From Paludibacter sp. (GTDB lineage: Bacteria; Bacteroidota; Bacteroidia; Bacteroidales; Paludibacteraceae): a stretch of 64,000 nucleotides of DNA. The translations under genes were made by a program, and so were the position numbers. The stretch covers positions 62,001 through 126,000 of the forward strand of contig JAQTTH010000006.1 in assembly GCA_028710895.1 (NCBI GenBank), given 5' to 3'. Below, piece after piece: positions 33,476 to 54,876 of the stretch. The notes below the pieces were generated by a model. The model did no database searches and was not told the DNA's origin. It saw only the letters and a program-made list of their open reading frames with translations. Each line of letters opens with the position of its first letter. Positions within the stretch are counted from its first letter, which is position 1.

Positions 33476-33895
33476 TTAATCCACCGCCAAAATTATAGAA
33501 GATGCCTTCACAATTGCACTTGCCTCTATGCCAACTGTGAGTTCAAGCGATGCGACAGATGATTTGGTTATTACAGCAGTTACGGTGTAACCACTTCCCA
33601 AATCAATAGACACTTCATCATTCACCGAACCTTTAAGAATGGACGAAATCTTTCCGGTCAAAACGTTACGGGCGCTGATTTTTTTTACATCGATGCCTAT
33701 GATTACGCTCGACGACTTGATAAGTGCATAAGCTGTGTCGCCTACTTTCAAATCCAGATTTTTTACGGCCCCATTCGTCACTACCGATACAATTTCGGTT
33801 CCACCCGGCAATATCAATATTACTTCGGCATTTACTGCACCTTCAGTTATAGATTTTACCGTTCCTTTGAGTTGGTTTCTTGTACTTAATTTCAT
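33476..33895 (-). CDS. Two-domain Mop/TOBE molbindin
   Basis: A 139-residue protein made of two tandem Mop domains (about 3-67 and 73-138), each starting with SxRNxLxGxxxSIxxGxVNxEV. Such di-Mop proteins bind molybdate or tungstate as oligomers and act in storage, or as the sensing half of ModE/ModC. It is divergent from the HTH-only ModE-like gene. The local ModC lacks a C-terminal Mop/TOBE domain, so this may be the free molybdate-binding unit of the module; this is inference. Confidence 0.9.
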   Translation of the reverse strand: MKLSTRNQLKGTVKSITEGAVNAEVILILPGGTEIVSVVTNGAVKNLDLKVGDTAYALIKSSSVIIGIDVKKISARNVLTGKISSILKGSVNDEVSIDLGSGYTVTAVITKSSVASLELTVGIEASAIVKASSIILAVD

Positions 33896-34038: not shown

Positions 34039-34112
34039 CATTATTAAGACAGAAAACATTGTACAGCTTAACATTCAAAATATTTTAAAACAAAATGAGA
34101 TGTTCACATTCA

Positions 34113-34124
34113 TACATTAATGTA
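34113..34124. promoter_or_regulatory. Candidate NifA-type upstream dyad
   Basis: TACATTAATGTA has the same TACAT-N-AATGTA form as the dyads upstream of nifH and nifE. It lies 110 bp before a sigma54-like promoter. Confidence 0.5.
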
Positions 34125-34221
34125 GAATTGCAATAAAAACACTTCATTCACGTAGTCAATCTTACATCGATTTCATATCACAGCAACAGATAAAGTGCTA
34201 CAAATTGGTACTTTACCACAT

Positions 34222-34236
34222 TGGCACATAAATTGA
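34222..34236 (+). promoter_or_regulatory. Sigma54-like promoter before the ModE-like gene
   Basis: TGGCACATAAATTGA has the -24 block TGGCAC and GG-N10-GA spacing, as in the nifH and nifE promoters. The -12 GC of the classical sigma54 consensus is GA in all three. Confidence 0.5.
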
Positions 34237-34322: not shown

Positions 34323-34676
34323 ATGAAGCAATCGTCCTTTAATATGGCTGCCGAACTTTCATTCTATCGTGATGGTGAGATTTTTCTCGGCAGCTTGCAA
34401 ATTCGGTTAATGAAACAAGTCGTGACAGACGGTTCAATTCATGCAGCAGCTAAGAATCTGAAAATGTCCTATCAGCATGCATGGCATCTGCTTGACAAAC
34501 TTAATCGGTTGTCGCCGCTACCTGTAGTTATCAGACAAAAAGGCGGACGCGATGGTGGAGGTTGCGTAGTAAGTAATTATGGGCTGAAACTTATCACTAC
34601 GTTTGAAGCAAAAGAAAATGCCTTAAAGGAGTTTCTTGCCAATAACAATGCTGATTTTGACACCTGTTTTTTTTGA
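34323..34676 (+). CDS. ModE-like winged-helix regulator (HTH domain only)
   Basis: A 117-residue protein equal to the N-terminal DNA-binding half of ModE: LGSLQIRLMKQVVTDGSIHAAAKNLKMSYQHAWHLLDKLN is the ModE helix-turn-helix, followed by the wing KGGRDGGGCVVSNYG. No Mop domains are attached; two Mop domains are encoded divergently next door. The ATG at 34323 is chosen over an upstream TTG at 34278. A ModE-like operator lies between this gene and the porin-modABC genes. The tail contains a cysteine (FDTCFF). Confidence 0.88.
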   Translation: MKQSSFNMAAELSFYRDGEIFLGSLQIRLMKQVVTDGSIHAAAKNLKMSYQHAWHLLDKLNRLSPLPVVIRQKGGRDGGGCVVSNYGLKLITTFEAKENALKEFLANNNADFDTCFF

Positions 34677-38721: not shown

Positions 38722-38990
38722 ATTCTCATTAACGAGAAAATGATTGAAATGCATTTGAAATGCTTTCTCAATGTTGAGAAAGGGTAATAATTCACTTTTA
38801 GTACTTTCTCATTAACGAGAAACGATGTTTTATCCATTTCCAATGCTTTCTCATTAACGAGAAAGGTCTAATAATCCGTTTTTGATACTTTCTCATTAAC
38901 GAGAAACAATATTTTATCCATTTCAAGTGCTTTCTCATTAACGAGAAAGTTCTGATAATCCGCTTTTAGTCGTTTCTCGTTGTCGAGACA
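38722..38990. repeat. Seven-unit palindrome array, 41-42 bp period
   Basis: The unit CTTTCTCATTAACGAGAAAG and variants have the TTTCTC position at 38722, 38764, 38805, 38847, 38889, 38931 and 38973, giving spacings of 42, 41, 42, 42, 42 and 42 bp (four helical turns). Spacers alternate between two types (TTTTATCCATTTC-like and TAATAATCCGCTTTTAG-like), so the DNA is also an approximately 84-bp tandem repeat in three copies. The last unit is degenerate. No protein is encoded. Confidence 0.9.
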
Positions 38991-39060: not shown

Positions 39061-39100
39061 TTCCTACCTTTTAAGTATAAAACCCTACATCAATGTAGGA
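39061..39100. promoter_or_regulatory. Upstream activator-type site of nifH
   Basis: TTCCTACCTTTTAAG followed by the dyad CCTACATCAATGTAGG (39084-39099). The same two-part arrangement occurs before nifE. The dyad core starts 148 bp upstream of the promoter GG, a usual distance for NifA-type enhancer sites. Confidence 0.65.
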
Positions 39101-39225
39101 ACTTGCATCTTCATCACTTATCCACATTTCGGATAAATTTCATTTCAAACAAAAAAACAATTTTTTTATCAACCTACATATCAAATCATTAGCACACAAT
39201 ATTCGATCGTAAAAATCACCCTAAA

Positions 39226-39253
39226 ATGTTAATGGCACGGTAAATGAATAAGG
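39226..39253 (+). promoter_or_regulatory. Sigma54-like promoter of nifH
   Basis: Contains TGGCACGGTAAATGA with the -24 GG at 39234-39235 and GG-N10-GA spacing. The 28-bp block is identical to that before nifE except for one base. A sigma54-dependent NifA-like activator is encoded at the other end of the cluster. Confidence 0.65.
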
Positions 39254-39307: not shown

Positions 39308-40144
<837 letters not shown>

Positions 40145-44528: not shown

Positions 44529-44568
44529 TTCCTACATTTTAAGGTTATTATCCTACATAAATGTAAGG
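44529..44568. promoter_or_regulatory. Upstream activator-type site of nifE
   Basis: TTCCTACATTTTAAGG followed by CCTACATAAATGTAAGG, the same two-part element as before nifH. The dyad core TACATAAATGTA starts 147 bp upstream of the promoter GG (148 bp at nifH). Confidence 0.65.
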
Positions 44569-44692
44569 TATAGGTAAACCAAAACTATGGAAAAGACTTG
44601 ATTCGAACAGACAAAGCGATAAAAAATAAAAATGTAAACAACTACAAATATGACACTTAACCATCATACATATGTTATAAAACATAGAAATA

Positions 44693-44720
44693 ATGTTAAT
44701 GGCACGATAAATGAATAAGG
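44693..44720 (+). promoter_or_regulatory. Sigma54-like promoter of nifE
   Basis: Contains TGGCACGATAAATGA (GG at 44701-44702, GG-N10-GA). It differs from the 28-bp nifH block at one position. Confidence 0.65.
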
Positions 44721-44763: not shown

Positions 44764-46095
44764 ATGGCTCATATATTAGATGAAAGGCAAAAGCAAGTAT
44801 CGATGGCAGGTGCAAATGAACGCACGATCGATTGCAACAAGGCCAGTTTGGCAGGAAGTGTGAGTCAACGTGCATGTGTATTTTGCGGATCGCGCGTGGT
44901 GCTATACCCGATAGTGGATGCACTACACATCATTCACGGCCCTATTGGTTGCGCAGCGTACACCTGGGATATCCGTGGTTCACTCTCTTCGGGTCCGGAA
45001 CTACACCGACTCAGTTACTGTACCGATCTACAAGAACGTGATGTGATTTTTGGCGGAGAACCGAAGCTGCAAAAATCAATCAACGAACTGATAGAGCTAC
45101 ACAACCCCAAAGCCGCATTTATCTACACTACTTGTATTGTAGGCGTTATTGGCGACGATGTAGAGCAAATAAGCCGCACCATTCAAAAAGAAAAAGGCAT
45201 TCCGATTATACCCGTTCAGGCTCCGGGATTTCAAGGATCGAAAAAAGACGGTTACAAAGTTGCCTGCGAAGCCATATTTACCCTGGTGGGAACCAAGAGC
45301 AAACCCTATACTCCGGCTAAAAGTATCAATATTCTGGGCGACTTCAACCTTGCCGGCGAACTTTGGATATTGCTGGAATACTATAAAAAAATGGGCGTAC
45401 ATGTAAATGCCACTATCACCGGCGACGGACGGGTAGACGATATTTGCAATGCGCACAATGCGGCACTTAACGTAGTGCAATGTTCCGGCTCAATGAACTA
45501 TCTGGCCAAGATGATGAAAGACGAATACGGTATTCCTTCTATGCGGGTTTCGTATTTTGGAATTGAAGATATGAGCGATGCGCTCTACGATGTGGCTCGC
45601 TTTTTCAAAGACGACGATATGATGGCAAAAGCCCGTGAGCTGGTAACCGAAGAAATATCGCGTATGATGCCTGCATTGGCTTGGTATAAAGAAAGACTGA
45701 CCGGTAAGAAAGCCGCCATTTATGTGGGCGGGGCATTCAAAGCCATTTCGCTGGTAAAAGCATTACGACTGATTGGCGTTCAATCGGTGATTGTGGGGTC
45801 GCAGACCGGAACAACTGAAGATTACGAATTAATTAAACAGCTCTGTGACGAAGGAACCATCATCGTTGACGACTCGAATCCGGTGGAACTTTCGCATTTC
45901 GTGAAAGAAAAACAGGCTGATATCTTTATCGGAGGTGTAAAAGAAAGGCCTATTGCTCACAAAATTGGTCTCGGATTCTGCGACCACAATCACGAACGCA
46001 AAGAGCCACTGGCCGGCTACGAAGGCATGATCAATTTTGCAAAAGAAATATACGCCACGGCAATGAGTCCGGTTTGGAAGTTTACAAAAGGTTAA
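44764..46095 (+). CDS. nifE: Nitrogenase cofactor assembly scaffold NifE
   Basis: A 443-residue NifD-like scaffold subunit that with NifN converts NifB-co to the Mo-containing FeMo-cofactor. Cluster cysteines Cys38 (RACVFCGSR), Cys63 (GPIGCAAYTW) and Cys124 (YTTCIVGV) are present. The His equivalent to NifD His442 is absent from the C-terminal region (FCDHNHERKEPL takes its place), as expected for NifE. First gene of the second nif operon, behind the sigma54-like promoter. Confidence 0.97.
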   Translation: MAHILDERQKQVSMAGANERTIDCNKASLAGSVSQRACVFCGSRVVLYPIVDALHIIHGPIGCAAYTWDIRGSLSSGPELHRLSYCTDLQERDVIFGGEPKLQKSINELIELHNPKAAFIYTTCIVGVIGDDVEQISRTIQKEKGIPIIPVQAPGFQGSKKDGYKVACEAIFTLVGTKSKPYTPAKSINILGDFNLAGELWILLEYYKKMGVHVNATITGDGRVDDICNAHNAALNVVQCSGSMNYLAKMMKDEYGIPSMRVSYFGIEDMSDALYDVARFFKDDDMMAKARELVTEEISRMMPALAWYKERLTGKKAAIYVGGAFKAISLVKALRLIGVQSVIVGSQTGTTEDYELIKQLCDEGTIIVDDSNPVELSHFVKEKQADIFIGGVKERPIAHKIGLGFCDHNHERKEPLAGYEGMINFAKEIYATAMSPVWKFTKG

Positions 46096-53295: not shown

Positions 53296-54876
53296 TTAAT
53301 CGTGGGTGGATTTATGAGTCTGATGCGAACTTTTAAATCGCTTGGCATCAATATCATACTTCTTAATTCGTATACCCATCATACGTTCTGTAATTCCCAG
53401 TTGCTCAGCTGCTTTTGCACTGTTTCCTTTGGTGGAAATAAGTGCGTCCATGATGATTTGTTGCTCCATTTTACCCAAAATGGTATCCAACGTGCCATTT
53501 TGCATGGTTTCGGATGTGGTGGCAGTTTGAAGTGAAGCCGGCAAGTTATGCGTGCGGATAACCGAATCGGTACTTAAAATACAGGCTCGTTCAATACAGT
53601 TTTCCAATTCACGGATATTGCCCGGCCAGTGGTAAACCATCAAAGTATCAATGGCCATCGTAGTAATTCGTTTGATATTTTTTCCGTGTCGTTTATTGAA
53701 TTTATCAATGAAGAAATCAGTCAAAACCGGAATGTCATTGATTCGCTCACGCAAAGCCGGAATGTAAATCGGGAACACGTTGATACGATAGTATAAATCT
53801 TCTCTAAACTGGTCTTTGGCAATCAGATCTTCCAGATTCCGGTTGGTTGCACATAAAATCCGCACATCCACCTTAATTGGTTTTGTACTACCAATACGTT
53901 CAATTTCACGTTCCTGCAACACACGCAACAGTTTCACCTGGGTAGAAGCAGGTATATCGCCAAACTCATCCAGAAAAATTGTTCCACCATTCGCAGCTTC
54001 AAAACGTCCGATACGTGTATTCGAAGCACCGGTAAATGCACCCTTTTCATGTCCAAACAGCTCACTTTCAATCAAACTCTCAGGCAAAGCAGCACAGTTC
54101 ACTTTTATAAATGGTTTACTTTTTCGGGCACTGCTGTAATGTATAGCATCAGCCACCAACTCCTTCCCTACTCCACTCTCGCCACGAATCAGCACCGTTG
54201 CATCTGTCATTGCCACACTGTCGATGAGCGAGAAAACTTCATTCATTTTTCCGGAGTTTCCTTTAATACGATCCGGCATAATGCGACTGCGAAGTTCACC
54301 ACGAAGGCTCAGGTTTTCATTTCGCAATTGCTCCATTTCCTCTGCATATTCCTGACGACGACGGAGGGTGCGCCCAATCATTGAACCCACAATTTTGAGC
54401 AAACGCAGGTCATAATCAAAATTCACAATACGCTTGTAAACTTTGTGGAGGCTGATTGTACCAATAATTTCATCTTTATATCTGATGGGCGTACAGATAA
54501 ATGACACATCAGCACCATCAATGGTCGTGGCAGCATGAGTCAGATTCAAAAACTCATGCGAAACCGCAATTTTCGGCAACAAAACGTTTTCCCCTGTTTT
54601 AATAACACGCCCTATAATTCCTTTTCCTACCTGATAAATGGCCTGTTTTTTCTGATCTTCCGAGACACCATACGATCCTTCGATTGTAATCTGAGAATTT
54701 TCACGATTTAAAATCGTCAGGATGATTCGTTCAGCCTTTAAATGCTGAGCTAAAATACGAAGTGCCTCATCCAAATCAATCTCCTTATTGCTCAGCAAAG
54801 AGCTTAATTCAAGAAGCACTTCCAACTCCTTGGCTCCGTAACAATCAGATCCATTAAAACTACATAATGTTTCCAT
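53296..54876 (-). CDS. nifA: NifA-like sigma54-dependent activator
   Basis: A 526-residue bacterial enhancer-binding protein. GAF domain (about 20-175), AAA+ domain with Walker A GESGVGKE (232-239), the sigma54-contact loop GAFTGA (279-284) and Walker B LDEFGD (302-307), then a Fis-type HTH near 484-505 ([24 protein letters not shown]). The GAF-AAA-Fis order matches NifA. The interdomain linker lacks the CxxxxC motif of oxygen-sensitive rhizobial NifA. The ATG at 54876 is preferred over an upstream TTG at 54924. Two sigma54-like nif promoters in the window are likely targets. Confidence 0.9.

Follow-up and report, generated by a model that had tools for sequence, protein, structure and literature searches.

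Results

nifH and nifE share a promoter block and a pair of upstream dyads

The 64,000-nucleotide stretch of Paludibacter sp. DNA analyzed here (GCA_028710895.1, contig JAQTTH010000006.1, positions 62,001–126,000; hereafter the window) carries nifH (39320–40144, + strand), nifE (44764–46095, +), and nifA (53296–54876, −). The nifA product combines a GAF domain, an AAA+ domain with the GAFTGA motif that a preliminary description of the sequence had recognized, and a Fis-type helix-turn-helix (HTH). Upstream of nifH and nifE, we found the shared sigma54-type promoter block of that description, with its single mismatch and a length of 29 bp (AATGTTAATGGCACG[G/A]TAAATGAATAAGG; 39225–39253 and 44692–44720, both +). 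The −24/−12 elements within the blocks lie at 39233–39247 (TGGCACGGTAAATGA) and 44700–44714. The −24 GG is present in a TGGCAC-like element at nifH, nifE, and a modE-like gene (see below), and the ten-base spacing after GG is kept, but the −12 dinucleotide in the window is GA in place of GC.

Further upstream of nifH, a dyad with perfect arms, CCTAC-N6-GTAGG (39084–39099, +), follows a second copy, CCTAC-N7-GTA (39063–39079, +), at a distance of 21 bp. The corresponding elements at nifE are CCTACATAAATGTAAG (44552–44567, +; 11 of 12 positions) and a CCTAC half with a weak right arm (44531–44547, +). The distance from the dyad core to the −24 GG is 148 bp at nifH and 147 bp at nifE, as first described (147 and 146 bp to the T of TGGCAC). 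The preliminary description had taken the upstream site to consist of two different parts. The elements are where it put them, but they are two copies of one dyad: a second-site scan that allowed N6 or N7 showed that the supposed first part, TTCCTACMTTTTAAG, is a CCTAC-N7-GTA version one base wider, the N7 form having been added after inspection of the sequences.

By itself, the exact dyad core TACATNAATGTA is not rare in the source genome (14 strand matches versus 10 for a reversed control pattern), and with two mismatches it occurs at chance level within the window. The extended form, CCTAC-N6-GTAGG, has three occurrences in 4.9 Mb; two fall within open reading frames (ORFs), and the only intergenic one is that at nifH. 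Judged from its sequence, the conserved dyad does not fit the classical NifA site TGT-N10-ACA.

A third unit precedes a modE-like gene

We also observed a third control unit, absent from the preliminary description, upstream of a modE-like gene that encodes a DNA-binding part only (34323–34676, +). Here, a dyad (CATACATTAATGTAGA, 34111–34126, +; 10 of 12) and a sigma54-like promoter (TGGCACATAAATTGA, 34222–34236, +) are 111 bp apart, and the gene is followed in order by genes for a porin, modA, modB, and modC. Among the matches listed, which comprise dyad-bearing regions only and are thus no census, 14 modE regions have a dyad of at least 9/12, and five of these (L002, L011, L016, L017, and L019) have two such dyads 30–31 bp apart. 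By eye, all four bases follow the −12 G in these regions, and C does so in a single case (L109).

Two side observations concern this part of the window. ModE appears to be split, the 117-aa DNA-binding part being accompanied by a nearby protein with two TOBE domains (33476–33895, −). Furthermore, the interval from modC to the nifH control region holds a 42/84-bp repeat array, in which a near-palindrome, TTTCTCATTAACGAGAAA, occurs in five copies at 38722–38948, one with a mismatch (10 strand matches versus 0.26 expected).

A search of the source genome with TGGCACN6TGM returned 66 matches, seven of them intergenic by our ORF rules; three are the nifH, nifE, and modE units. The other four lack a dyad above 9/12, so this search did not support a wider sigma54 regulon. 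Because of its position at a contig end, immediately ahead of a probable gene start, one match (L035, dyad 8/12) may be miscounted as coding by the ORF rule.

The dyads recur at set distances in nif-bearing relatives

To the 20 loci from a NifD scan of named genomes (19 Bacteroidota and one Treponema metagenome-assembled genome [MAG]; nifH start in 18), we added an order-level set, in which 26 of 393 genomes, the source genome included, have NifD and all 25 others were taken in, and a phylum-level set, in which 84 of 395 genomes match NifD. Three of the 84 were already included; the remaining 81 belong to families f136 and f134 outside the class, which we take to be green sulfur bacteria, and eight of the 81 were used as a convenience choice. 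Of the resulting 52 nifH upstream regions, 51 have a −24 candidate in a search that required GG (L114 has none) and were analyzed: 16 Paludibacter-like, 26 from other Bacteroidales (including L015 and L016), eight green-sulfur-like, and one from Treponema. The counts below are not independent because many rows are related (close pairs are L007/L010, L011/L013, and L004/L020).

We scored CCTACANNNNTGTAGG at 90–205 bp upstream of −24, kept the best site per region, and called it present at 10/12 or better. By this measure, the dyad is present in 16/16 Paludibacter-like, 24/26 other Bacteroidales, 7/8 green-sulfur-like, and 0/1 Treponema regions, against 0.02, 0.11, 0.00, and 0.00, respectively, expected from dinucleotide shuffles. 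The dyad is thus far more frequent in nif-bearing relatives than in shuffled sequence. The Treponema MAG reaches 9/12 pairs only, weakly suggesting that the activator-site unit extends to it.

A clear second site (an N6 or N7 dyad of at least 7/10 within 62 bp) was found in 33 of the 51 regions, versus 10.8 expected in all from composition shuffles, and not in the other 18. Thirty-one of the 33 lie at set distances: 21 bp (seven regions), 28 bp (eight), 30–31 bp (eleven), and 40 bp (five), where shuffles give 0.5 (20–22 bp), 0.8 (28–32 bp), and 1.0 (39–42 bp). The distance is 28 bp in all eight green-sulfur-like regions, mostly 21 or 40 bp in Paludibacter-like regions, and 30–31 bp in nine of the ten other Bacteroidales with a clear second site and in Treponema. 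Spacings of 21 and 31 bp approximate whole helical turns; 28 and 40 bp do not, which counts against an enhancer model.

An A/T tract and an IHF-like site lie between dyads and promoter

The preliminary description held that the remaining upstream DNA was not obviously conserved. This does not survive comparison across relatives, in which column conservation picks out two further windows, at −74 and −54. For these alignments, we used 13 of the 16 Paludibacter-like and 23 of the 26 other Bacteroidales regions, leaving out near-duplicates and L121. At nifH of the window, the first corresponds to an A/T tract (39159–39171, +) and the second to an IHF-like site, TATCAAATCATTA (39179–39191, +), which matches the IHF consensus WATCAANNNNTTR at 9/9 positions, 54 bp upstream of TGGCAC. 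A plus-strand site of 8–9/9 lies at −54, −53, or −52 from TGGCAC in 21 of 26 nifH and nifE promoters of the first set; at 8/9 none was found there at nifH of L002, L004, and L020 or at nifE of the window and L013. With one position relaxed to R, a change picked after many ATCAG sites had been seen in the data, the motif reaches at least 8/9 at −56 to −52 in 16/16 Paludibacter-like and 14/26 other Bacteroidales regions (together 30/42; 0.20 and 0.34 expected by chance) and in none of the eight green-sulfur-like regions or the Treponema region. At RpoN-dependent promoters, the DNA separating enhancer and promoter is commonly bound by IHF (PMC7962754, in part). The source genome has seven HU/IHF-family matches, and the three scanned all score below every IHF cut-off.

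The likeness of the nifH and nifE regions could in principle reflect shared ancestry alone, through a recent duplication of functionless upstream DNA. A nifE unit is present in eight of the ten Paludibacter-like loci with nifE upstream DNA (all eight with −12 GA; the ten include L005, whose sequence ends before the gene) and in none of the four first-set loci that are less closely related, as would fit copying of the nifH unit. However, the spacers between the elements at nifH and nifE are only 29% identical (the start of the leader, 31%). Moreover, conservation in the 23 divergent regions from Bacteroidales is 1.03 bits for the −24 window and 0.40 for the −54 window, versus a median of 0.24. 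We consider descent without function extremely improbable.

NifA of this clade has a distinct recognition helix

The window NifA scores 506.5 bits against TIGR01817, by far its best model, although this is below the cut-off of 528.85 and the match stops before the HTH. A homolog of the same clade was found in all 21 nif genomes searched, some with GSFTGA. The recognition helix of the window protein is unlike the TPRQIAYRIQ of the NifA in PDB 9qq6; by eye, nearly all homologs from Bacteroidales and green-sulfur-like genomes, as well as Treponema, read approximately [ST][ED]R[IMV][ML]. The departures are L124 (SNRKL) and L283, L285, and L287 (TRR-type). L124 (genome G118, helix SNRKLG) lacks a dyad above 7/12 and has instead altered dyads, TTTAC/TTCAC-N6-GTAAA, 30 bp apart. 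Altered dyads beside an altered helix are what one would expect if the helix reads the dyad, in this one case.

Two other sets of activators were noted. L283 and L285, NifA-type proteins of families f134/f136 with the TRR helix, each have a second NifD-like gene ∼5 kb away on their contig and are perhaps activators of an alternative nitrogenase. In the source genome, L132 and L133 have GAFTSA and GSFTGA in place of GAFTGA; by eye, they are the only other sigma54-activator-like proteins among six PF00158 matches.

Near the source-genome glnK-amtB genes (G000:C14:500516–500558; L028:1501–1692), two TACATAAATGTA cores lie 31 bp apart upstream of TACTTTTG, and the leader holds a third dyad (ACTACATTAAGGTAGG). 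As part of a conserved regulon this pair is unsupported, being confined to the source genome among 30 AmtB loci in 18 genomes.

The dyad might instead serve a different regulator of nitrogen or molybdate, such as a ModE-like protein, with NifA acting from a site not seen here. The glnK-amtB core pair would fit, as it stands beside a promoter of the TTG-N-TACTTTTG type in a region where we saw no −24/−12, and the AmtB genes of G096, which has nif, and G002, which has no NifD match, each have a single dyad nearby (11/12 and 10/12, respectively). Against this, the AmtB core pair is peculiar to one genome among the 30 AmtB loci compared, whereas the dyad is tied phylum-wide to sigma54 promoters of nif genes at enhancer distance. 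Furthermore, pairing is as expected for an oligomerizing activator, and the dyad departs in a genome where the NifA helix departs. On balance, we regard a different regulator as unlikely and NifA as the probable ligand.

The −12 element is variable in Bacteroidales

We then compared the −12 dinucleotide at nifH. It is GA in 16/16 Paludibacter-like regions; GT (9), GA (6), GC (6), or TC (5) in the 26 other Bacteroidales; and GC in 8/8 green-sulfur-like regions and in Treponema. The preliminary description had suggested that the non-classical activator site and the −12 GA together define a Bacteroidota version. The activator site stands phylum-wide, but GA is invariant in no group other than the Paludibacter-like one and is ruled out as a signature of the phylum. 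In the divergent families, TGGCAY and a TG at sigma54 spacing are nevertheless kept (T in 25/26 and G in 21/26, T and G at −12 having been favored where a region held several −24 candidates; L121 and L111 are ambiguous).

A non-canonical −12, seen in the window (GA) and most Bacteroidales regions, might mean that a Bacteroidota housekeeping sigma factor reads these promoters and that the TGGCAC block is coincidental or a different site. The retained TGGCAY and TG spacing speaks against this, even allowing for the favoring of TG among candidates, as does the perfect TGGCACN5TTGC in all eight green-sulfur-like relatives that share the dyad. RpoN, moreover, was found in 26/26 nif genomes. A housekeeping promoter thus appears very unlikely, and we retain the sigma54 assignment.

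In the source genome, the RpoN HTH reads YDISTISRV versus the enteric MHESTISRV, with isoleucine at residue 378 (aligned to E. coli-type PDB chains). Of the 25 nif genomes that could be read (the 26th, G300, is cut off), 24 have I and one has V at residue 378, and 23/23 RpoN proteins of 22 further genomes, eight of them green-sulfur-like, have I. E378 has been linked to recognition of the −12 GC (PMC4496707, in part), and residues 378 and 383 crosslink to DNA (PMC5505868, in part). The change from E378 to I is ruled out as the sole cause of a loose −12 by the eight I378 genomes with canonical GC at nifH; I378 may still permit it. We tentatively suggest, as a possibility more doubtful than the enhancer model below, that Bacteroidales sigma54 reads −12 mainly through the G and leaves the next base nearly free, that E378I/V together with changes confined to Bacteroidales let nif promoters drift, and that NifA on paired dyads supplies the lost specificity. 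The sigma54 consensus is given as TGGCACN5-7TTGCT in the available part of PMC12316311, which mentions class-specific logos in which a loose −12 may already be apparent for Bacteroidia.

Discussion

These sequence comparisons give good support, across the phylum, for a sigma54/NifA-type unit whose activator site is non-classical, and a phylum-level variant of NifA/sigma54 enhancer control is the best reading of them. We consider it quite likely that the units are three-part enhancer promoters, with NifA on paired dyads, a bend made by IHF/HU, and sigma54 polymerase. In this model, dimers of Bacteroidota-type NifA would bind two CCTAC-N6/7-GTAGG dyads 21–40 bp apart, ∼125–205 bp upstream of −24, and oligomerize on them. 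In most Bacteroidales, an IHF/HU-family protein would bend the DNA at the A/T tract and WATCAR-N4-TTR, 52–54 bp upstream of −24. The looped AAA+ ring would then use GAFTGA to open the sigma54 polymerase complex at TGGCAY-N6-TG, the next −12 base after TG being free in Bacteroidales. We infer this pairing of elements with proteins, the looping, the activation, and a response to nitrogen from the arrangement described above. In the source genome, control would cover nifH, nifE, and, by gene order, modE-porin-modABC, tying nitrogenase to molybdate supply.

The dyad frequency, the set spacings, the NifA clade and its helix, the IHF-like site, RpoN, and GAFTGA count for the enhancer model. Counted against it, besides the helical phasing, are the lack of an IHF-like site at nifE of the window and in 8/8 green-sulfur-like regions, the HU scores, the glnK-amtB pair, and the exceptions L114 (−24), L124 (dyad), and Treponema (dyad of 9/12).

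The unit resembles the proteobacterial NifA-sigma54 system of Klebsiella and Alphaproteobacteria in its GAF-AAA+-HTH activator with GAFTGA, upstream dyad, −24 TGGCAC, IHF-like site between dyad and promoter, and nif and mod targets (PMC4999443 and PMC7962754, both in part). It differs in having paired CCTAC-N6-GTAGG rather than TGT-N10-ACA, a TERMM-type rather than a TPRQ-type helix, and, in Bacteroidales, a loose −12; the classical sites are given as TGGCACG-N4-TTGCW and TGT-N10-ACA in part of PMC4999443. The enhancer logic is also that of Clostridiales sigma54 activators, with TGT/ACA or distinct sites that differ by activator group; there the consensus is TTGGCATNNNNNTTGCT, and the available part of that source holds no CCTAC-type dyad (PMC6615313). 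The two dyads and Fis-type HTH dimers that oligomerize further recall NtrC-type enhancers, from which the unit differs in dyad sequence. In place of the GAF domain of this activator, NtrC carries a receiver domain; NtrC sites are about three turns apart.

Bacteroidales nif clusters, their nitrogenase activity, and a nearby nifA have been described (PMC4356463, in part), and the words "promoter" and "upstream" do not occur in the available portion of that paper. In the open-licence literature, which is weak evidence on this point, we found no paper on nif switching or NifA sites in Bacteroidota or green sulfur bacteria.

The loose −12 is relevant to promoter reading by sigma54: if our tentative view of it is true, TTGC-based sigma54 models would miss most Bacteroidales nif promoters. 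Together, the dyad, the spacing rules, and the NifA helix provide a motif for finding nif regulons in Bacteroidota and green sulfur bacteria, and the helix and its dyad appear to be an instance of activator specificity re-wired in nature.
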